Positions 7,227 through 19,731 of a stretch of DNA of 23,912 nt are shown here, one piece after another; position 1 is the first letter of the stretch; each line of letters begins with the position of its first letter. Position numbers and translations under genes: made by a program. The stretch comes from a virus, in the IMG/VR virus record IMGVR_UViG_3300046450_001092, positions 1 through 23,912 of that record; one strand, given 5' to 3'. Below the pieces are notes generated by a model. The model made no database searches, had not been told where the DNA came from, and saw nothing but the letters and a program-made list of their open reading frames with translations.

Positions 7227-8825
7227 TTAAACAAAGTAGGAGCTATCTCCTGCTTTCTTAGTTGTACTATCACCCCACATAGTTGAGTTTTCTAATTCAT
7301 CATCTTCTTGTGTTTGTGGCCCTACTTCACTTGGTTTCCATGCATTTAATTCTGCTAGCATAGTAATTGTATCTATCTGATCATCGTGTTTACTTTTAAA
7401 CCCCTTAAGAGTAGCTAAAGATAACTCAAAAAGCAACTCTACAAGTTCTTCACTGTCTTTTAATTCTTCAGGCAACCATATTTTTTTAGATTTAAATAAG
7501 GGAATAGCATTCTGTTGAAATCTACTCATCTTATCTTTAGTCGGCCTAATACCTATTGTATTACTATTTCTTCCCTTAGACAAAGTAAAATAATTATTTC
7601 GTTGTCCCATTTCATTTTGGATCCAACTAATAAACCCTCCTTGCTGTCCGGTAGTTTCAATACCTACTTCCTGTGGTCGATATTCCTGAACTAATCTAAA
7701 TAATTCATCAATAGTCTTATCCATTAATGTTCGTTTACAAAACCCATCCACCCAAAGCCAATCTCCATTATTATTGTATGCCCATACGTTAATAACACTA
7801 AAATCAGCGTGTTCCTTATCACTAGTAGCAAAATCAGTAGTAATATAAAAGTTATACGCACCTTTATTTTGTAGTACATTACTACGCTTATACCAAATTA
7901 TATCTGAATCATTAATCAATCTTTCTTCAGGAGACGTAATACGTAACATTAACTCTTGATTAAATGAATCTAATTTACCAGCACCTTTAGATTTAAAATA
8001 CTGATTATTTACATAATCAAAACTAAACCTATCTTCCCAAGCGCCTTTAAACTCTTCACGAGAGCACGGAAATGCCTCACAAACCGGATATACATTAACA
8101 TACCAGACACCCGATTCAATTGCCTTATATAAAGGATCTTTAGCATTAAACGGAGTTCCAGACCAAATAACTTTCCTCTTATTAGGATGTAACGCATAGT
8201 CAATGGCCGAGTAAACAGTATTTTCCACATTTTCGATAATAGTTGCAGACCTAGCATCTTCATCTCCTAGTAGATCATCAAGTACAGCAAGTTGTGGTCT
8301 CGTATTTAATTCAACCGTACCACGAACACCTGTTTTAGCACCATGTCCTGTAACAACAAACTCTTTACCTTCAGCATTCTTAAAATACCATCTAATGTCT
8401 GTAAATCTAGAAGTAGTAATGTACTTCTTTAAAAACTCACTATTTTCACATCTGCGTTCCATACGTAAACGCATCTTCTTTACACCATTCTCAATACTAT
8501 CAGATACATACAGTGCATAGTCTACATTACCAAATCCTGGAATTGACCCGTAAACCGCTATATACAAAAACAAATACTCAGCAAATATAGTAGTTTTAGC
8601 TAAACCACGAGCACACATGTTAGCTGTGTTCTCTTTTTTACCTGCTATTTTATCCATCATCTTGTAATGTATTACCGGAGTCTTGTTCTCTTCCCCCTTT
8701 TCACCATTAACTAATTTAATAAACGACACAAACTCTAATGCAAACTCACTAGGTACGTAAGTAGGATCATCATTGTAATCAATGTCATTAAGCCATTCAT
8801 CTACTGTTTTTTTAACTAGGGACAT
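7227..8825 (-). CDS. terL: Terminase large subunit
   Basis: 532 residues, ATG after GAGGTGAATA. This is the DNA packaging motor of tailed phages: an N-terminal ATPase drives DNA into the capsid and a C-terminal RNase H-like nuclease cuts the concatemer. The ATPase shows a Walker A-like ARGLAKTT at residues 72-79 and Walker B LAVLDD with D183/D184. The adenine/coupling region VIWSGTPF is at 219-226. The nuclease shows acidic residues in ITTDFATSD (D331), VGIETTG (E390) and KHDDQIDT (D481, D482, D485). Length is normal for the family. It is the last gene of the leftward non-structural chain and is followed by a terminator. No small terminase subunit was securely identified; the 254-aa gene upstream is a candidate. 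Confidence 0.95.
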   Translation of the reverse strand: MSLVKKTVDEWLNDIDYNDDPTYVPSEFALEFVSFIKLVNGEKGEENKTPVIHYKMMDKIAGKKENTANMCARGLAKTTIFAEYLFLYIAVYGSIPGFGNVDYALYVSDSIENGVKKMRLRMERRCENSEFLKKYITTSRFTDIRWYFKNAEGKEFVVTGHGAKTGVRGTVELNTRPQLAVLDDLLGDEDARSATIIENVENTVYSAIDYALHPNKRKVIWSGTPFNAKDPLYKAIESGVWYVNVYPVCEAFPCSREEFKGAWEDRFSFDYVNNQYFKSKGAGKLDSFNQELMLRITSPEERLINDSDIIWYKRSNVLQNKGAYNFYITTDFATSDKEHADFSVINVWAYNNNGDWLWVDGFCKRTLMDKTIDELFRLVQEYRPQEVGIETTGQQGGFISWIQNEMGQRNNYFTLSKGRNSNTIGIRPTKDKMSRFQQNAIPLFKSKKIWLPEELKDSEELVELLFELSLATLKGFKSKHDDQIDTITMLAELNAWKPSEVGPQTQEDDELENSTMWGDSTTKKAGDSSYFV

Positions 8826-8963: not shown

Positions 8964-9401
8964 TTATTCCTTTGTGTTATTTATTATAACGGATGTCCAT
9001 GTAGCTTGAGTTATTAATACGTTATCAACATATGCTTTACCAGAAAATTTAGCATATTTGGATAAGTTAGTAGTGATGTTTATATCAAATTTTATTTGAT
9101 CTCCAGGAAGTGCAGGTTTAATAAATTTAACTTTATCTATTGTAGTTACATAAGCTAATTGTCCTTCAACTAAATCAGCACAACCAAATAGTAGTCCTCC
9201 AGATTGAAACATCCCCTCTAATATAAGTACTCCTGGCATAATAGGAAAATTAGGAAAATGCCCACTAAAATAAGGCTCGTTATGTGATACATTTTTTAAA
9301 GTAACTATATTTGTATCAGTTTTACTTATAACCTTATCTACCATAAGAAACGGATATTTATGTGGAAGTACTTTAAGTATTTCTGAAACGTTATTTTTCA
9401 T
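8964..9401 (-). CDS. fabZ: FabZ-like 3-hydroxyacyl-ACP dehydratase
   Basis: 145 residues from ATG at 9401, chosen because GAGG sits 7 bases upstream; two earlier in-frame ATGs lack a binding site. FabZ is the hot-dog-fold enzyme that removes water from 3-hydroxyacyl-ACP in bacterial fatty acid synthesis and acts as dimers or hexamers in the cytosol. The family signature is complete: LPHKYPFLMVDKV near the N-terminus, NEPYFSGHFPNFPIMPGV with catalytic H48, and ILEGM with E62 (spacing 14, as in E. coli His54/Glu68). Then come IDKVKFIKPALPGDQIKF and KFSGKAYVDNVLITQA. Length equals that of bacterial FabZ. The start overlaps the end of the 254-aa gene by 11 bases. In a phage it is an auxiliary metabolic gene that could alter host acyl chains; this role is inferred. 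Confidence 0.9.
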   Translation of the reverse strand: MKNNVSEILKVLPHKYPFLMVDKVISKTDTNIVTLKNVSHNEPYFSGHFPNFPIMPGVLILEGMFQSGGLLFGCADLVEGQLAYVTTIDKVKFIKPALPGDQIKFDINITTNLSKYAKFSGKAYVDNVLITQATWTSVIINNTKE

Positions 9402-10155
9402 CAATGACCTCATAAGTTGTTTCAACAGGCGGCGTATTCACCTTCCGAGCTAATATTTCACTATGTGCTATCTCCTTAGCACTGGATTGCCCATTTAAGA
9501 TCATCTTTAGTTGTTGCTGTGCAAGTGCTTTAGTAGTTGCACGTAGATCCTCTACTATGTCATTACTGTAGTTAATATCAATATCTAGTTTAGCGACAGC
9601 AGGAGCTGCTAGGTTGCTAATTAAACTTTCTGCAGCTTTCTGCCTTACTAGCTCTGATTTAGCTGTGTGCATCAGCTCTGCTTGTACGTTGATAGCTTCC
9701 TGATACACTCCCGCATTTAATATATGCGTAGGCACCATAGTTTGTTCCATGATCTTAGTTATGAGCCCTGTTTTACTATAGTTATCTGCAAAACTAGCTA
9801 TATAGGATCCAGAAGCCCCTTTATCTATTAAATTCTGATATCGATCCGGGAATACTTTACTATACGCAGTAGATGACTTATCTCCCATTAACTTAAGGGA
9901 CACAAACTTAACAGCATTTACATAAGCTGCTAATGAGTATTTACCGGTAGACAACACTGCAGCATACGTTAATGTATTATCCCGAAATACTCGTCTTAAC
10001 TCTGAATCAGGCTCTGAATTAATAACTTCTACAACAGCATCAGTTATATGCTTACGGAAGCGCTTATCCGGAAGGGCCCCTTCTAACATACCTTTAGTTA
10101 AATGATCTGTTGTTTCTAAATTAGTATCTACATCTGCTAAATTAGTTAATTGCAT
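9391..10155 (-). CDS. Hypothetical protein, possible terminase small subunit
   Basis: 254 residues, ATG after GAGGCTAATA and inside the end of the upstream gene (14-base overlap). The sequence is mainly helical, with charged N-terminal helices (LTKGMLEGALPDKRFRKHIT), a middle with KTGLITKIMEQTMVPTHILN and a long C-terminal helical part (ELVRQKAAESLISNLAAPAV, DDLRATTKALAQQQ-like). There are no catalytic motifs or membrane segments. Position three genes upstream of terminase and the helical make-up would suit a small terminase subunit or a DNA-packaging partner, but I do not recognise the family. Confidence 0.55.
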   Translation of the reverse strand: MQLTNLADVDTNLETTDHLTKGMLEGALPDKRFRKHITDAVVEVINSEPDSELRRVFRDNTLTYAAVLSTGKYSLAAYVNAVKFVSLKLMGDKSSTAYSKVFPDRYQNLIDKGASGSYIASFADNYSKTGLITKIMEQTMVPTHILNAGVYQEAINVQAELMHTAKSELVRQKAAESLISNLAAPAVAKLDIDINYSNDIVEDLRATTKALAQQQLKMILNGQSSAKEIAHSEILARKVNTPPVETTYEVIDEK

Positions 10156-10477
10156 TATTAGCCTCGTTCCATTTAATAATTAACGCATTATGTGATGAGT
10201 CTTCCGCGTAACACTCATGCGGAGATACCATCCACTTGTGGTCATCTAATCTTACTATGAAATTTTTTTCTACTAATTCTACCCAGTACTTCTCCCAAGT
10301 ACGGTAGTCTGTTATCCACTTTACTGTCCTAATAAACTTATGTTTGTCTATCTCATTGTCTTTATTAGCTAATACCATAAGTGGTAAAAGTAGTGCTTGC
10401 CCGGTACGAGACAACTCATCTATACGAGACGGCTCATCATCTTCTATTTCACAATATGTATTAATGTATTTACTCAT
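10142..10477 (-). CDS. Winged-helix-like protein
   Basis: 111 residues from ATG at 10477, whose first base is the last base of the upstream stop (TGATG); an in-frame TTG one codon earlier is less likely. The layout resembles a small winged-helix DNA-binding protein: a helix with LSRTGQALLLPLMVLANKDN, a central helix pair around KWITDYRTWEKYWVELVEKN, then a wing and FIVRLDDHKWMVSPHECY. The last segment parallels the MLNPDVMF end of the RepL-like protein at 13028, so the two may be distant relatives. It may be a regulator or replication-linked protein; confidence is modest. Confidence 0.5.
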   Translation of the reverse strand: MSKYINTYCEIEDDEPSRIDELSRTGQALLLPLMVLANKDNEIDKHKFIRTVKWITDYRTWEKYWVELVEKNFIVRLDDHKWMVSPHECYAEDSSHNALIIKWNEANNAIN

Positions 10478-11247
10478 CAAGGTATATGTCTAAATGTTAA
10501 ACTTATTCTACGTCCTAATGGCGCACTTACTGAATGCTTGTATTTATTCTGGAAGTCACCTTCAGGCATTACGTAACAACTTCTATCTGTTAGTTTAATC
10601 TTAAAATATTTACTACGATCATTCCTAGCTATAGTAGCAACTGTTGTTTCTCCTAAACTGATAGTTGCTACAGCCCCTACAATTCCGTTATTTTCCGTGA
10701 AAACAGCTTCATCATCTGAGTGAAGGTCTAGACCCTTATTAGTATATAAATTAACTAATAAACTATTAAAATAGTTATTAGAAAACACTAACTGGTTTTC
10801 TATATCTCTAGCAATGTTTTGAAATAAAACAGGCATTTCCTGAGCTTCGTGCCTTAAATCTGTATACGCGTATTCAACACAACCAAATGCTTGTTCTTCA
10901 TCTAGATTAGTTGATACATCTACAGGACCATACCAAGTAGCTATGTGGTTACGATTGGTATGAAAAATATACCCAAGTTCCTGAGTTTTTCCTCCCCAAT
11001 CAGCTCTTTCTTCCCGTTTACCCGTTAATTTTTGCCAAATTTTAGGAGCATACTGCTGTAACCATGCTGCTTTTTGTTTTCTAGTCATACTGCTTGCTGC
11101 TTTGGTATTACCTCGGCTGATTTTTTCCTGTTTTACAACTGAGTCCCAAAGACTATCAAAGTCTCGTAAAACAGAATGTTTTTTGTTATCAATAGATCCT
11201 AAAATTATTTCTTGGTCATCTACAAGTATGATCTTATCATTAAGCAT
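10477..11247 (-). CDS. AlkB-like 2-oxoglutarate/Fe(II) dioxygenase
   Basis: 256 residues. Enzymes of this family use Fe(II) and 2-oxoglutarate to oxidise methyl groups on DNA or RNA bases, or to modify proteins. The C-terminal half carries the AlkB pattern: NSLLVNLYTNKGLDLHSDDE supplies H176 and D178 for iron, AVATISLGE is the next strand, YVMPEGDFQNKYKHSV supplies H238, and RRISLTFRHIP contains the arginines (R247, R253) that bind 2-oxoglutarate. The N-terminal 90 residues are basic and helical and are not part of the catalytic fold. The gene lies between two coupled genes in the leftward chain. It could repair methylated phage nucleic acid or counter host methylation; the substrate is unknown. 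Confidence 0.85.
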   Translation of the reverse strand: MLNDKIILVDDQEIILGSIDNKKHSVLRDFDSLWDSVVKQEKISRGNTKAASSMTRKQKAAWLQQYAPKIWQKLTGKREERADWGGKTQELGYIFHTNRNHIATWYGPVDVSTNLDEEQAFGCVEYAYTDLRHEAQEMPVLFQNIARDIENQLVFSNNYFNSLLVNLYTNKGLDLHSDDEAVFTENNGIVGAVATISLGETTVATIARNDRSKYFKIKLTDRSCYVMPEGDFQNKYKHSVSAPLGRRISLTFRHIP

Positions 11248-11248
11248 T

Positions 11249-11428
11249 TTATTTCTTCTCTTTTTTCCATCGCGTAAGCTGAAGGTACATTAAATGATTT
11301 TTTCTTTTTTGCGTTTTTCGTAACTTAGCTTGATAAACGTGATGCGCTGAAGGAGATCTAATAACACTTGTTACTAGTAACATAACAAACAAAGGCCACA
11401 ATCCAGTTAAATATGTCTTAAGAGTCAT
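11249..11428 (-). CDS. 59-aa single-span membrane protein with basic tail
   Basis: ATG at 11428 overlaps the end of the radical SAM gene by 11 bases; stop TAA at 11251-11249, two bases before the AlkB-like start. Residues 7-24 (LTGLWPLFVMLLVTSVIR) form one membrane helix. The rest (HHVYQAKLRKTQKRK, RWKKEKK) is strongly basic and probably faces the cytoplasm or binds nucleic acid or membrane lipids. No family is recognised. The binding site is weak (GAAAAG), so it is probably translated by coupling. Confidence 0.6.
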   Translation of the reverse strand: MTLKTYLTGLWPLFVMLLVTSVIRSPSAHHVYQAKLRKTQKRKNHLMYLQLTRWKKEKK

Positions 11429-13031
11429 TTAACACTTTTCTACTAATTAAGCGCATTCTTATAATAATTACAATCCAACGACAAAGTTTCCAAATAGTTT
11501 CAGAAAAATATTTTGGATAGAAAACAAGAGGCGATTCCATTGGTAAAGTAGGTCGCCTATCTTTACGTGATTTACGGCGGAAAACCCCACCTTTAGTAGG
11601 ATGAATCTTTTCAATACCAATACAACCTTTAAACATAGTAATTAGGGTAACTAAGTCTAGTGCTTTACTGGAACTTGTACCAGTTGCCATCATACGTTTT
11701 AAAGTAGTTTTGGTATGCTCATATGTGTAATAAGCATTCCAAGCTTTATAATAAGTTTCTTCCCAATTTACTTTTGACATTTTAGGATGTGCAGTAACTG
11801 CATGATTTAAATCATACATGTTTAAATCTTCATCCATAGCAACTCCAGCAGTGTATAACTTCTCATGATCTTTTGAACCAGGAAGAGGCGTAAGACAAAG
11901 AAACGATATTAGATCCATAGGAAGTTCTTTTTTAATAATTTCAATGTCGCGCAAGATTGATTCTTGAGTATCATTAGGGAAACCTAAAATATACCCGCAA
12001 GAGGTTATAATTCCAGCCTCATCTAAAGCAAGCAACATTTTACGGTAATCAGAAATTTTATTTTGCCGCTTATCGACACTTAAAAGAGCATCAGAATTAA
12101 TATTTTCTAAACCAATAAAAACCTGTGTAACACCTGCGCGTCTTGATTTTTCAATAAACCCTGGCAACTTATAGGCAAGAGTATCAATCATAAAAGAAAA
12201 CTCGATTTTTAATTTATGAACTTCACGCAACTCAATAAACATATCTAAAATGCTTTCCCAATTCTTATTTCGTGCAAAATCATCATCAGAAATAAAAAAT
12301 AAATGTAAGCCCTGTTTAACGTTAAAGCGGATTATGCGCTCAATACTTTCAACTGACCTGTTTCTTGATGTATGTCCTTGAACATTTATAATCGTGCAGA
12401 ACGAACAAGTAAAAGGGCAACCACGTCCAGCATCAAAACTAGCTGTTAAACCTGCCGTCAGACGAACTCTATCTGCCGGAATAAATGGCATTGCAGTATT
12501 ACTAATATCAGGTAAATCATCTAAAAAGTTGTAAATTGGTTTAAGTTCGTTATTAGCCGCATCAATTAAAACTTGTCCAAGTCTGTCTTCAACTTCTCCT
12601 GAAAACATTGAAACACCAATGTCTAAAGCCTTTTGCATGTAAGCATCAGGCTCTTTAATCATTGCCAACACTCCTGATATATGAAAACCTCCCATAGCAA
12701 CTTTAATACCCATTGCTCGTAATGGTGTAGCAATATCTAATGCACGGGGAAATTGACTTGATTGTACACCAACAAGCATAAGCATTCCGTCATCTGCACT
12801 TTTTATTAAAGAAGCAATTTTATCTGTATTAATGTGTGTATTTGTTTCGTCAAATACATGAAGGTCTATTTTGACATTTTTACCTAATACCCTAGTCTTT
12901 TTACATTCAGTAGCTAAACCATAAAGACAAGCTAGTGAATTTGCCGGCAGCCAAGACCTAAACCACTGAATTACATATCCGTCATCGTCATAATGTGAAG
13001 GTGCCACCAAAACAAGGCTGAATGTTTTCAT
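11418..13031 (-). CDS. B12-binding-type radical SAM enzyme
   Basis: 537 residues; the ATG overlaps the stop of the RepL-like gene (ATGA). Radical SAM enzymes split S-adenosylmethionine at a [4Fe-4S] cluster to start radical chemistry. The cluster motif CPFTCSFC is present (C205, C209, C212) in GRGCPFTCSFCTIINVQ. Residues 50-120 form a Rossmann-like half (LVGVQSSQFPRALDIA, GIKVAMGGFHISG) in the place of the cobalamin domain, but the usual DxHxxG B12 ligand motif is not obvious. The TIM-barrel part shows FFISDDDFARN, VFIGLENIN and SCGYILGFPNDT, as in BchE/hopanoid-type enzymes. A C-terminal extension of about 130 residues ends in a hydrophobic basic helix (WKLCRWIVIIIRMRLI) that may bind membrane. 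Substrate unknown; a lipid or cofactor is plausible. Confidence 0.85.
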   Translation of the reverse strand: MKTFSLVLVAPSHYDDDGYVIQWFRSWLPANSLACLYGLATECKKTRVLGKNVKIDLHVFDETNTHINTDKIASLIKSADDGMLMLVGVQSSQFPRALDIATPLRAMGIKVAMGGFHISGVLAMIKEPDAYMQKALDIGVSMFSGEVEDRLGQVLIDAANNELKPIYNFLDDLPDISNTAMPFIPADRVRLTAGLTASFDAGRGCPFTCSFCTIINVQGHTSRNRSVESIERIIRFNVKQGLHLFFISDDDFARNKNWESILDMFIELREVHKLKIEFSFMIDTLAYKLPGFIEKSRRAGVTQVFIGLENINSDALLSVDKRQNKISDYRKMLLALDEAGIITSCGYILGFPNDTQESILRDIEIIKKELPMDLISFLCLTPLPGSKDHEKLYTAGVAMDEDLNMYDLNHAVTAHPKMSKVNWEETYYKAWNAYYTYEHTKTTLKRMMATGTSSSKALDLVTLITMFKGCIGIEKIHPTKGGVFRRKSRKDRRPTLPMESPLVFYPKYFSETIWKLCRWIVIIIRMRLISRKVLNDS

Positions 13032-13369
13032 TTAGTTCTAAGTCCTTTAGTAGTTTGTGTATCCCACATATGCTTAACTATAAAATACCGCCTGTCATCT
13101 CCATTAAACATAACATCTGGATTAAGCATATACTCCTTTTTAGTGTATTTACGAATCAAATCACATTTCTTCAAGGCACGAACGCCTATTGTAAAGTCCC
13201 CTATTGTTACCCCAACTGTTTTAGCTATTTCTTTAGGAGTCCCTACTACCATATTTATTCTATTAATGTGATACATCATCTTGAGCAACACCAGTGCTGC
13301 GGAGCTGTTTAATTTATTTTTAGATAAAAAAGTAGCTGGATGTGTACCTAATTGAAATTTGTTAAACAT
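13028..13369 (-). CDS. RepL-like winged-helix protein
   Basis: 113 residues, ATG preceded by AGGAGGG at 13 bases. It fits the RepL/plasmid replication winged-helix pattern: an N-terminal LSKNKLNSSAALVLLKMMYH helix, INRINMVVGTPKEIAKTVGV as the first HTH helix, a recognition helix around TIGDFTIGVRALKKCDLI, and the wing plus YMLNPDVMFNGDDRR. In plasmids RepL binds iterons at the origin; in phages such proteins can be replication initiators or repressors. Its proximity to the palindromic control region makes that region a likely binding site. It is coupled to the radical SAM gene by an ATGA overlap. Confidence 0.7.
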   Translation of the reverse strand: MFNKFQLGTHPATFLSKNKLNSSAALVLLKMMYHINRINMVVGTPKEIAKTVGVTIGDFTIGVRALKKCDLIRKYTKKEYMLNPDVMFNGDDRRYFIVKHMWDTQTTKGLRTK

Positions 13370-13659: not shown

Positions 13660-13671
13660 TGCTTAACTTCA

Positions 13672-13729
13672 GTTTAACGTTGTATACAACGCTTAACGGC
13701 TCAGTTAAACCACGTATACAACGTTTAAC
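13672..13729. repeat. Two 26-bp near-palindromes, 32 bp apart
   Basis: Copy 1 (13672-13697) and copy 2 (13704-13729) both have the form GTTTAAC...GTATAC...GTTTAAC/GCTTAAC, centred on GTATAC at about 13684/13685 and 13716/13717. Arms are nearly perfect inverted repeats. A further half-site GCTTAAC lies at 13661-13667. The centre spacing of 32 bp is close to three helical turns, so dimers would sit on the same face. They lie just upstream of the leftward promoter and are good candidates for operators or origin sites, possibly of the RepL-like protein. Confidence 0.65.
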
Positions 13730-13783
13730 TTTTTGTAACTTGTTCTATCTAAAGAAGTTATTCCCCCTTAAGAACATAAGAAG

Positions 13784-13822
13784 AGTCCTCCAGACTTCTC
13801 GCCCCTGCGGGGCTTCAGTCTG
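13784..13822 (+). promoter_or_regulatory. CTCCA-loop hairpin pair, copy 0
   Basis: Hairpin A is AGTC-CTCCA-GACT (13784-13796); hairpin B is GCCCC-TGC-GGGGC (13801-13813). An alternative outer pairing CAGACT (13791-13796) with AGTCTG (13817-13822) would enclose hairpin B and break hairpin A, so two exclusive folds are possible. It is the first of four similar pairs on this strand. Confidence 0.5.
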
Positions 13823-13882
13823 TCGTCCTCGCTACCGCCTATATTATTATTATATTATATAAATGAGAGAGGCAAACAGTAA

Positions 13883-13971
13883 GATGGTCTACGAAAAAGC
13901 CATTAGCAATTTTTTCATTCTAGGTAGATGTGCAGTACTAACTAGCTGAAAGCTAGAAACCAAAGACCATC
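13883..13971 (+). promoter_or_regulatory. Structured early leader
   Basis: GATGGTCT (13883-13890) can pair with AGACCATC (13964-13971) over 8 bp, closing a 73-base domain that contains a second hairpin CTAGCT-GAA-AGCTAG (13942-13956). It lies upstream of the first rightward gene. Shape only; no known riboswitch is recognised. Confidence 0.4.
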
Positions 13972-14012
13972 CCCCCTCCTTTAAAACAAAACGATCTTTT
14001 ACCCACACACAA

Positions 14013-14046
14013 GATGACCTCCAGTCATCAGAGGCAATCATGCCTC
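14013..14046 (+). promoter_or_regulatory. CTCCA-loop hairpin pair, copy 1
   Basis: Hairpin A GATGAC-CTCCA-GTCATC (14013-14029) is followed after one base by hairpin B GAGGCA-ATCA-TGCCTC (14031-14046). The binding site AAGGAG of the 77-aa gene starts nine bases after hairpin B and could pair with CCTCC in the hairpins, so translational control is possible. Confidence 0.6.
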
Positions 14047-14066
14047 CAAGATCCAAGGAGATTAAC

Positions 14067-14300
14067 ATGAAGAAGATGTATAGAGCAGGTTCAGATGCTG
14101 TTGTAGGAGTCCTAGAGCCAGTAGTTGACCTAGGTAAATCCTTAGCCATCGGTGCCGAAATGGGTCGCCGAGTTATGACAGACGAGTGCTTCCATCAGGA
14201 GCTCGCTTCTGAAGGCGTTATGCGTAAATCGCTCGATAAGTGTAAACTTAGTCCTGAGCGTATAGCTTACTATGAACGTAAGTATCATATCGCATCCTAA
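14067..14300 (+). CDS. Hypothetical early protein
   Basis: 77 residues from ATG at 14067 (AAGGAG seven bases upstream). An ATG 27 bases earlier is in frame but lies in hairpin B and lacks a binding site. The N-terminal half (GSDAVVGVLEPVVDLGKSLA) is amphipathic and alanine/valine-rich, followed by GAEMGRRVMTDECFHQEL and a basic C-terminus with SPERIAYYERKYHIAS. It is the first rightward gene, so an early host-directed role is possible; no family is recognised. Confidence 0.65.
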   Translation: MKKMYRAGSDAVVGVLEPVVDLGKSLAIGAEMGRRVMTDECFHQELASEGVMRKSLDKCKLSPERIAYYERKYHIAS

Positions 14301-14309
14301 AGGCCCTGT

Positions 14310-14350
14310 CCTCGAGCGTGTTCCTACGCTCGGGGGCAACCCTTATTTTT
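14310..14350 (+). terminator. Terminator-like hairpin
   Basis: CCTCGAGCGT (14310-14319) pairs with ACGCTCGGGG (14326-14335) over 10 bp with one G-U pair and a 6-base loop, just after the 77-aa gene. The T-rich run (TTATTTTT) starts six or more bases past the stem, which makes it a weaker terminator or an RNA processing site. Confidence 0.5.
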
Positions 14351-14424
14351 ACACACAAGATAACACAGTAAGAGAGTGCCTCGAGAGACATAGATTCTAC
14401 TAGTAGCAAGTTTTTATAAAACCT

Positions 14425-14495
14425 TTCGCCTCCAGCGAAAAGGAACAATAACGTTCCTGCTTCAAACAGTTGTGTTCTTAGACTGGACGCAACTG
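14425..14495 (+). promoter_or_regulatory. CTCCA-loop hairpin pair, copy 2, plus third hairpin
   Basis: Hairpin A TTCGC-CTCCA-GCGAA (14425-14439, extendable outward with one bulge) is followed by hairpin B AGGAAC-AATAAC-GTTCCT (14441-14458). A third stem CAGTTGTG/CGCAACTG (14467-14495) follows. The 136-aa gene starts 35 bases later with a strong AGGAGG. Confidence 0.6.
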
Positions 14496-14529
14496 TACTT
14501 TTAATTCTTTATCCTAGGAGGATAGTTTT

Positions 14530-14940
14530 ATGTCTAATCAAACAGTTGGTTTAGTTTCAAATTTACCTGTTAACGGTAATGGTCGAAAATCTACAGATAT
14601 AAAGTTTAAGTTTAATCTTGGTGTAGATACTCCTTATCAGTTTGTATTTACTGTAGGAGCACATGACACTAATTTAGAAGCGATTCGGAAATTGATGACT
14701 GTTACAGGTATCACTAATTTCTTTGCTAAGCTAGGAGACGACTACCAGTTAGTCGATTCTGACGGCAAGGGCATCCAGATTAAAGGTAACAACGGAGATT
14801 CTTGTGGCTTTGTTAATCATAGTAATTTTGATAAAGAAATTACTTTAGAAGTCCACGGTGAAGATATTATTGAAGCCGCTAAAGTAAGTATACTCGCAGT
14901 AAGGGATAAACTTACTATCGCTTCTGCGTTTACCGCGTAG
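14530..14940 (+). CDS. Hypothetical early protein, 136 aa
   Basis: 136 residues, ATG after TAGGAGGATAGTTTT. It appears soluble and strand-rich: LVSNLPVNGNGRKSTD, IKFKFNLGVDTPYQFVFTV, a helix AIRKLMTVTGITNFFAKLGD, a Gly/Asn-rich loop (KGIQIKGNNGDSCGF) and a C-terminal helix EDIIEAAKVSILAVRDK. No catalytic motif is seen. Strong binding site, own terminator and a structured leader suggest a highly made early protein. No family is recognised. Confidence 0.7.
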   Translation: MSNQTVGLVSNLPVNGNGRKSTDIKFKFNLGVDTPYQFVFTVGAHDTNLEAIRKLMTVTGITNFFAKLGDDYQLVDSDGKGIQIKGNNGDSCGFVNHSNFDKEITLEVHGEDIIEAAKVSILAVRDKLTIASAFTA

Positions 14941-14961
14941 AACAACAGTTTCATCAATATT

Positions 14962-14999
14962 GGCAGACCTACTTAATTGTAGGTTTGCCTTTATTTTTT
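14962..14999 (+). terminator. Intrinsic terminator after 136-aa gene
   Basis: GGCAGACCTAC (14962-14972) pairs with GTAGGTTTGCC (14979-14989) over 11 bp with one G-U pair and a loop of TTAATT, followed at once by TTTATTTTTT. Confidence 0.9.
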
Positions 15000-15021
15000 A
15001 CTTATAAGATAGATAGAACTT

Positions 15022-15056
15022 AATCCGCCTCCAGCGGGTTGGCGGGTTCTTCCCGC
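15022..15056 (+). promoter_or_regulatory. CTCCA-loop hairpin pair, copy 3
   Basis: Hairpin A CCGC-CTCCA-GCGG (15025-15037, extendable to 7 bp by AAT/GTT) and hairpin B GCGGG-TTCTT-CCCGC (15042-15056). The next gene starts at 15098 with AGAGGAGG. This repeats the order hairpin A, hairpin B, AGGAGG, gene seen at copies 1 and 2. Confidence 0.6.
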
Positions 15057-15097: not shown

Positions 15098-15322
15098 ATG
15101 ACATACAATCAGGCTATAGAGCATGAGTATTTTAATTACTTCAATAGGATTATAGGTGTAGATCCTGATCCAAATATAAAAAGAGTACTATTTGTATGTG
15201 ATGAATACGAACGTATACATAATTACGAAAGATCATCACCTCGCTTAATTCCTAAAGAATGGGGTGATCTACCAATTGACGAGTTCTATAAACCAAAGCC
15301 TGTAATATTGGAGGCATCATGA
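15098..15322 (+). CDS. Hypothetical 74-aa protein
   Basis: 74 residues, ATG after AGAGGAGGTTTGAA. Acidic and aromatic-rich: MTYNQAIEHEYFNYFNRIIG, VLFVCDEYERIHNYERSS and a Pro-rich end with KEWGDLPIDEFYKPKPV. No membrane segment or known motif. It overlaps the next gene by four bases (ATGA), so the two are probably coupled. Function unknown. Confidence 0.65.
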   Translation: MTYNQAIEHEYFNYFNRIIGVDPDPNIKRVLFVCDEYERIHNYERSSPRLIPKEWGDLPIDEFYKPKPVILEAS

Positions 15323-17991: not shown

Positions 17992-19731
17992 ATGACAACT
18001 GCTACTAAACAATACGCATTAGAAACTTCTTGGTCTACTCGAGTTACAGATGAAATTGTACTTCAATCTATTGAAGGATCTATTCCTGAGCAAATGGAAT
18101 CAACTATTTTACAAAATATTACTGAAATTAATAAAGGAAAAATAAACAATAAAACAATACTTATTAAATTCTTTTCTATTATCCTTAAAGACACTATAGC
18201 TAAACCTATTCAAGCTATTGCTGGGCAATTGGGACATATTGCACATGTTTCAGATCCTGAAAAAGCAATTCATTGGGGATTTTTACTTATTAAACTTTGT
18301 AAAGATAGTGGTTTGTACACTTTAATGTTAGTTGACACGGACTGGTACGTGCACCCTAATTTTGCCCTAAATAAAAGTACAAGACAAAAAATAAATAAAT
18401 TGCAATATCTGCCTCCTATGAAAGTAATACCTAAGAATTGGTCTACTAATCGTAATGGAGGATGGTTATGGGAAAGTAAACATTTAGTACTTGGTAATAC
18501 ATTTACTAAACATAACAAACCTTTAGCTTACGATGTTATTAACAAATTACAAAATATTCCTTGGGAAGTGGATTCTTCAACTTATTTATTTGAAAAACAA
18601 ACAAATAATATGATGGATAAAAAGAAATTTCTAAGAGTAATTGATGAGTATTTAGGTAATCCCTTTTATTTTGTATGGAGATATGATTCTAGAGGTAGAA
18701 GTTATTCTTCTGGTTATGATTTAAATTTACAAAGTAATGAATATGGAAAAGCATTGCTTTCATTACACAACAAAGAAAAAATTACTAACATATCTAATCT
18801 ATACATAGCAATAGCTAATCATGGTGGTAAAAATAAGCTTACCTGGGAAGAACGTAAAAAGTGGTTTCTTTCTCAAAATATCGATTCCATTTCTTGGGAA
18901 GAACCTATTTTAGGCAGAAAAGCTATTAGAGCATTAGAAGACACTCTTAATAATAAACCTTCAGGTTACGTTATGAGCTTAGATGCTACATCATCTGGAT
19001 TGCAAATAATGGCAGTTATATCAGGGTGCAAGAAAACTGCTAAATTAGTAAATTGTATTGATTCAACTACTAGATATGATCTATATACAGAAATAGTTAA
19101 AATGATGAATCAAAAGCTTTCAAAACCTGTATCTAGAAAGATTATAAAGCAAGTTGCAATGACTCATTTTTATAATTCTAGAGCTACACCTAAAGCATTG
19201 TTATCTTCTGAAGAATTAGTAGTATTCTATGAAGTTATGGAAGGACTACTTCCTGGAGCTGAAGAGGTAATGACAGTTATTAATAAATGTTGGAATTATA
19301 ATAAAGACCATCATACATGGGTGATGCCTGATGGACATACAGTCTATATCCCTGTAGTTAACGCAGTTAATAGTGTGTACTTAGATCCAGATCTAGGAGA
19401 AATACCTTTTAGATATAATGAACAATTACCATCTATTAACTTTAGGTCCTTGTGCCCTAATGTTATTCATTCTATAGATGGTTACGTTGCTAGAGAAATG
19501 ATTAGACGATCTACTTTTCAATTAAGTCATATTCATGATTGTTTTGTATTTAGTCCAGATCATTTACAAAAAGTAACTGCTATGTACAGAGAAATCATGG
19601 CAGAAATTGCTAAAAGTAATCTTTTTGAAGATATTTTACAACAGATTACTGGTAATACTGCGTTAAAAGTAAATAAATTTAGTAACGATCTTGATCAAGA
19701 TATTTTAAATAGTGAATATATGTTGTCGTAG
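17992..19731 (+). CDS. T7-type single-subunit RNA polymerase, compact form
   Basis: 579 residues, ATG after GGGAGGGTAT. Motifs of the T7 family occur in order: WRYDSRGRSY (D232; T7 D421 region), motif A LDATSSGLQIMA with catalytic D331 (T7 D537), motif B RKIIKQVAMTHFYNS with K386 and Y394 (T7 K631, Y639), the PDGHTVYIPV region, CPNVIHSIDG (H493) and motif C IHDCF with catalytic D516 (T7 D812). The Lys-to-Tyr spacing of 8 is kept. The residue after Tyr is Asn where T7 has Gly640. The protein is about 300 residues shorter than T7 RNAP (883 aa): the N-terminal promoter-binding domain is much reduced, the specificity-loop region between B and C is shorter, and it lacks the C-terminal FAFA foot. 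It should transcribe later genes from its own promoters. Confidence 0.93.
   Translation: MTTATKQYALETSWSTRVTDEIVLQSIEGSIPEQMESTILQNITEINKGKINNKTILIKFFSIILKDTIAKPIQAIAGQLGHIAHVSDPEKAIHWGFLLIKLCKDSGLYTLMLVDTDWYVHPNFALNKSTRQKINKLQYLPPMKVIPKNWSTNRNGGWLWESKHLVLGNTFTKHNKPLAYDVINKLQNIPWEVDSSTYLFEKQTNNMMDKKKFLRVIDEYLGNPFYFVWRYDSRGRSYSSGYDLNLQSNEYGKALLSLHNKEKITNISNLYIAIANHGGKNKLTWEERKKWFLSQNIDSISWEEPILGRKAIRALEDTLNNKPSGYVMSLDATSSGLQIMAVISGCKKTAKLVNCIDSTTRYDLYTEIVKMMNQKLSKPVSRKIIKQVAMTHFYNSRATPKALLSSEELVVFYEVMEGLLPGAEEVMTVINKCWNYNKDHHTWVMPDGHTVYIPVVNAVNSVYLDPDLGEIPFRYNEQLPSINFRSLCPNVIHSIDGYVAREMIRRSTFQLSHIHDCFVFSPDHLQKVTAMYREIMAEIAKSNLFEDILQQITGNTALKVNKFSNDLDQDILNSEYMLS

Follow-up and report, generated by a model that had tools for sequence, protein, structure and literature searches.

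Early promoters of the type used by phage N4 carry their 3-nt loop in a GC-rich heptamer, stand upstream of early genes at the genome end that is injected first, are bound by the virion RNA polymerase (vRNAP), and require supercoiling by gyrase together with host SSB; in N4, release and stability of the RNA on the single-stranded template are ascribed to host SSB. N4 is, to our knowledge, the only phage whose vRNAP promoters have been characterised in detail. The passages of PMC4496689 that deal with early transcription describe N4 early genes as being transcribed by vRNAP from template-strand hairpin promoters with a 3-nt loop, in which the loop centre lies at −11, the template loop reads G-(A/G)-A, and the RNA starts opposite a C. 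The same passages state that vRNAP recognises the promoter hairpin with its loop, and that the RNA tends to stay hybridised to the single-stranded template, with host SSB helping to displace it. Hairpin promoters have been predicted, according to the relevant passages, for phages LUZ7, LIT1 and PEV2 (PMC3715699) and for Pectobacterium phage CB1 (PMC6027278; annotated in NC_048653).

Here we describe three hairpin pairs in a 23,912-nt stretch of viral DNA (IMG/VR record IMGVR_UViG_3300046450_001092, positions 1 to 23,912; hereafter, the window), and compare them with the N4 early promoters and with corresponding hairpins in relatives.

The window comes from an N4-like phage

Family matches identify N4-like genes throughout the 23.9-kb record, including an N4-type ATPase, and place the window, a genome fragment, among the N4-like phages (Schitoviridae). 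Late genes are directed leftward and early genes rightward, diverging from a control region at ∼13.6–14.0 kb, and two IMG/VR contigs, of 37 kb and 32 kb, are near-identical to the window. Two of the genes are:

7227–8825, − strand: terminase large subunit, up to 62% identity to N4-like phages
17992–19731, + strand: T7-like RNA polymerase, one 579-aa ORF with family matches to N4 RNAP1 and RNAP2; N4-like marker

In the polymerase gene, the two N4 RNAPII subunits are apparently fused and shortened, without the large insertion of N4 RNAP2. Between the terminase gene and the early region lie genes for a radical-SAM protein (11418–13031) and a RepL-like protein of a plasmid replication protein family (13028–13369). 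By eye, 8964–9425 resembles a FabZ-type dehydratase and 10477–11247 an AlkB/2OG-oxygenase-like protein.

Three hairpin pairs stand upstream of early genes

The initial annotation had reported four tandem hairpin pairs with the loop CTCCA. Three of these, at 14013–14046, 14424–14457, and 15025–15056, are confirmed, while the likeness of the fourth, at 13784, is superficial: that site forms one long hairpin and is treated separately below. The early region comprises the following features, all on the + strand:

14013–14029: pair 1, first hairpin, putative vRNAP promoter; GATGAC[CTCCA]GTCATC, template loop GGA, centre 14021
14031–14046: pair 1, second hairpin, GAGGCA-ATCA-TGCCTC; 5′ end of early transcript 1, predicted start ∼14031–14033
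14067–14300: early gene 1, with AAGGAG at 14055–14060; no family match
14307–14348: intrinsic terminator 3′ of early gene 1
14424–14440: pair 2, first hairpin, putative vRNAP promoter; TTTCGC[CTCCA]GCGAAA, centre 14432
14442–14457: pair 2, second hairpin, GGAAC-AATAAC-GTTCC; 5′ end of early transcript 2, predicted start 14442/14443
14530–14940: early gene 2, with AGGAGG upstream; no family match
14962–14999: intrinsic terminator 3′ of early gene 2
15025–15037: pair 3, first hairpin, putative vRNAP promoter; CCGC[CTCCA]GCGG, longer with G.T pairs, centre 15031
15041–15056: pair 3, second hairpin, GCGGG-TTCTT-CCCGC; 5′ end of early transcript 3, predicted start 15041/15042
15098–15322: first gene of early unit 3, with AGGAGG upstream

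The three pairs are real and far beyond chance. The loop CTCCA is common to four 5-nt-loop hairpins that are followed by a second hairpin, against a maximum of two in 300 dinucleotide shuffles of the window, and each of the three pairs, folded as single-stranded DNA, forms two hairpins (z −3.1 to −5.5). The earlier description of a fixed loop on varying stems is right in substance, with a refinement of the unit: the constant element is the 7-mer CCTCCAG, in which the outer C-G pairs, C.A is a degenerate closing pair, and the loop proper is the 3-nt TCC. The stems of the first hairpins comprise 4–6 pairs. A search of the window against Rfam gave no matches above the gathering score.

The early region reads promoter, gene, terminator, promoter, gene, terminator, promoter, with each of the three putative promoters upstream of an early gene and with the terminators just 5′ of promoters 2 and 3. 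Terminator-like sites are enriched (8 found versus 1.0 expected in shuffles), and no sigma-70 promoters are found above chance. The ORF listed from 14040 begins inside the second hairpin of pair 1. A second terminator-like hairpin, possibly an attenuator, is present at 14466–14496 in the leader of early gene 2.

The first hairpins resemble N4 early promoters

The hairpins at 14013, 14424, and 15025 are very probably vRNAP early promoters, each giving a transcript that opens with the second hairpin; we interpret the first hairpin in every pair as a DNA hairpin promoter and not as an RNA element. In particular, each has a 3-nt-loop inverted repeat that is centred at −11 in N4 terms (TCC in CCTCCAG, with starts at +10 to +12 from the loop centre by the GG rule given below), and the template strand reads C-T-GGA-G-G at all three, so that the loop conforms to the N4 consensus G-(A/G)-A (−10G, −11 purine, −12A). 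G is present at +10 and +11 from centres 14432 and 15031. From centre 14021, +11 is occupied by A, with the closest Gs at +10, +12, and +13; the predicted start at 14031–14033 is derived from N4 spacing, with the loop centre at −11.

The three N4 promoters P1–P3 share with the hairpins of the window a template hairpin, a loop G-(G/A)-A, a loop centre 11 nt before the start, and a place upstream of early genes, the start and the left-end location being putative for the window's phage; N4 P2 has the very same template loop, GGA. N4 P1 and P2 also have a second inverted repeat at the transcript start. Specifically, P1 comprises GTTGC-TTC-GCAAC, followed by GGACA-TGT-TGTCC from exactly +11 relative to the loop centre, and P2 comprises GAAGC-TCC-GCTTC, followed by GGATG...CATCC at +11; P3 has the same geometry with a weaker second hairpin. 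The differences concern two N4 contacts: the loop-closing pair, which is G-C in N4 and a template G.T wobble in the window, and template position −8, which is G in N4 and C in the window, as in Dinoroseobacter phage R7L. Because these two contacts differ, the hairpins of the window are best called N4-like, of a variant type. Moreover, all three loops of the window are GGA, and a clear second hairpin is present at every predicted start, in contrast to N4 P3.

Similar hairpins occur in other phages. LUZ7, LIT1, PEV2, and CB1, as presented in the passages cited above, have three early 3-nt-loop hairpins in analogous places, likewise predicted from sequence, but with another loop and stem code. 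In R7L (L031, Rhodovirinae), early genes are preceded by CC[TCC]GG hairpins, in some cases together with a second repeat at the start; the closing pair there is C-G, in contrast to the C.A of the window (template G.T). At the orthologous site, the 97% relative L122 has TGGC[TTCCA]GCCA and a second hairpin of its own; its loop-closing pair is T-A.

On the N4 model, supercoiling upon genome entry would extrude the inverted repeat as a hairpin; the virion RNA polymerase would recognise the template-strand hairpin, with loop 5′-GGA-3′ and loop centre at about −11; and the RNA would start at a G located 10–12 nt 3′ of the loop centre, predicted to fall at the very beginning of the second inverted repeat. 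With a start there, every early transcript would open with a hairpin, and the first hairpin, being upstream of the predicted start, would lie outside its own transcript, so that only the second hairpin is expected in RNA. The earlier proposal of a selected RNA is thus upheld as regards selection on the hairpins, but not as regards an RNA role of the first one. Binding by a phage protein, also proposed earlier, would come close, provided that what binds is the injected RNA polymerase and what is bound is template-strand DNA.

A vRNAP gene is expected next to the 37-kb contig

The N4 vRNAP core, compared directly with the contigs, was too diverged and gave one match, and we therefore used a PHROG profile. 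A giant vRNAP gene is absent, by this search, from all three contigs of the window's phage, each of which is incomplete. Giant vRNAP frames with catalytic motifs are present in relatives such as L046 and, where the contigs are longer, measure 4000–4800 aa. The sample that yielded L122 also yielded contig L153, which shares an overlap of 80% nucleotide identity with the left end of the 37-kb contig and runs directly on into a 4303-aa vRNAP (phrog_2206, E = 3e-191), with the gene order around it being that of N4. The motif EIDGISNG of this protein fits ExDGxxxG, the signature of the family (PMC10654107). The 37-kb contig breaks off in the gene that directly precedes vRNAP in L153, and this synteny leads us to expect the vRNAP gene just beyond the break, beside the gene at the left end of contig IMGVR 3300047669_000545, as part of the genome of the window's phage. 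When vRNAPs are aligned and compared with loop types, the catalytic motifs align and the −11 recognition element does not.

The layout recurs in relatives with phage-specific loops

Single-sequence scans with an early protein, the whole RNAP, or the radical-SAM protein retrieved few relatives, whereas an RNAP alignment as query retrieved 80 loci. The search set comprised 80 RNAP-bearing viral contigs and ∼19 cultured phages, from which hairpins were collected if their loop recurred in one phage with different stems, in non-coding sequence, upstream of a ribosome-binding site and ATG. Among 59 recurrent-loop hairpins, GG occurs 18, 14, 11, and 9 times at +10, +11, +12, and +13 after the loop centre, as compared with ∼1–2 times per offset elsewhere. 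This GG peak, 10–13 nt after the loop centre, is a start-site signature and provides independent support for the recurrent-loop hairpins as start signals. The loop is constant within a phage, a constancy partly built in by the collection rule, and differs between phages (CTCCA, TGAA, TAAA, TATC, TAC, TYC), the same layout being seen with TGAA in L046, TAAA in L057, TATC in L045, TAC in L048, and TTC/TCC in N4.

For a fold test of the start region, seven hairpins were added by name, picked on the first hairpin and position only: that of the window at 14013, N4 P1, three of G7C, and one each of JWAlpha and Piffle. In 40 candidates with GG at +9 to +12, the ensuing 28 nt fold better than shuffles (mean z −1.2, combined p = 2e-9; 9e-8 with the window left out), and pairing of the 5′ G is more frequent than in shuffles (p = 4e-7); these p-values are optimistic because the candidates share ancestry and are not fully independent. 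A perfect stem of at least 4 pairs beginning in the first 3 nt is present in 17 of the 40, against 3.6 expected. At several candidates, among them N4 P3 and G7C P3, a second hairpin is weak or lacking.

A covariance model built from the four CTCCA copies, as the initial annotation had suggested, retrieved the copies of the window and its near-identical contigs, L122, and the 13784-type element of L040 (E = 0.005); the match in L044 was weak, and the R7L promoter scored only E = 1.3. The model finds few relatives because the loop is phage-specific.

Alternative explanations of the hairpin pairs

Two alternatives place the function of the pairs in early RNA. As noted in the initial annotation, the loop contains CCTCC and three genes have AAGGAG or AGGAGG sites upstream, and the pairs could accordingly be early-leader elements whose CCUCC loop pairs with the Shine-Dalgarno sequence and controls translation. 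However, a start at +10 to +12 puts the loop outside its own transcript, the GG peak at a fixed offset is left unexplained, and the layout is kept in relatives whose loops (TGAA, TAAA, TATC, TAC) are unable to pair with a Shine-Dalgarno sequence; with the loop differing between phages in this way, translation control by the first hairpin is very improbable. The occurrence of tandem hairpins between early genes also suggests that, as in T7, a polycistronic early RNA might be cut at these sites by RNase III or a different nuclease. RNase III sites have far longer stems than the 4–6 pairs seen here; the terminators directly 5′ of units 2 and 3 make processing of read-through RNA less likely; and the fixed loop and fixed GG offset suit initiation. 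We consider processing, too, hardly credible.

A further alternative leaves the promoters in place and concerns the second inverted repeat, which might function at the DNA level, extruded as a second hairpin or serving as an SSB platform at the start site, instead of as an RNA hairpin. The second hairpin is about equally stable in both DNA strands, consistent with such a role, and its G.U and A.C pairs (2 versus 0) are too few to tell DNA from RNA. However, the bases of the second repeat vary freely, the structure that N4 vRNAP recognises is the promoter hairpin with its loop (passages of PMC4496689), and the second repeat is part of the predicted transcript, in which a repeat of any kind also forms an RNA hairpin. 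A role as DNA is possible but on balance unlikely. As an RNA hairpin, located within the predicted transcribed region from its first base, the second hairpin would most likely shield the 5′ end of the transcript, help to strip the growing RNA from its single-stranded template, or both: an RNA hairpinned at its 5′ terminus would be displaced more readily and would also have that end protected.

The copy at 13784 is a separate element of the control region

The fourth CTCCA site coincides with the following feature:

13791–13822, + strand: long conserved hairpin, outer stem CAGACT/AGTCTG, inner GCCCC-TGC-GGGGC; not a promoter pair

This site shares the 7-mer CCTCCAG and is kept in L122, and it might therefore be read as a fourth, outermost promoter that makes a small RNA, all four copies then being promoters. 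Its best fold, however, is a single long hairpin (z −1.3), which absorbs the 3′ half of what had been taken as the first hairpin. A seven-phage alignment preserves the long form, the changes there including a compensatory pair (A-U/G-C) and a paired deletion, while CTCCA is not kept in relatives (CTCCG, CGCCG). Furthermore, GG is absent from +8 to +14, and in L046, L043, L040, and L053 the loop orthologous to 13784 is unlike the phage's own promoter loop. A fourth promoter is thus distinctly unlikely; on the grounds of the single long fold, the missing start GG, and the loop mismatch, we have taken 13784 out of the promoter set, and we conclude that it is a structured control-region element in its own right.

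The ends of the long hairpin read AAGxGTCC...GTCCT. The block GCAATTTTTTCATTCTAGGTAGATGTGCAGTACTAAC at 13904–13950 keeps both its position and its sequence in many relatives, and a control-region profile still matches this part in the distant contigs L071, L073, L092, L097, L099, and L111; the block could be a genome end, a packaging site, or a replication site. Upstream of the control hairpin, at 13660–13740, imperfect palindromic repeats are arranged around GTATACAACGTTTAAC, a layout that is kept in relatives.

A proposed two-hairpin start module

Hairpin promoters as such are already known; what look new are the recurrent start-site hairpin and the altered loop closure. The passages on N4-type promoters in the literature cited here make no mention of a start-site hairpin, and older N4 papers may have mentioned it. 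We propose tentatively, as a generalisation somewhat short of an even chance, that Schitovirus early units share a conserved two-hairpin start module, in which a phage-specific DNA hairpin is followed by an RNA hairpin from +1 that frees or shields the transcript, and in which the loop serves as a private code, different from phage to phage and changing in concert at all early promoters of any one phage. The natural promoter variants, with template loops GGA with G.T, TTCA, TTTA, GATA, and GTA, provide a test set for how the hairpin is read, and variants with matched loops also show how the hairpin code changes. The +1 hairpin, present at N4 P1 and P2 as well, raises the question of RNA release and stability on the single-stranded template.

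In L084, L085, and L086 (e.g. L085:7967), near-identical hairpins, gctcgCTACGcgagactgagttgaac, are located upstream of several genes and possibly represent another promoter class.
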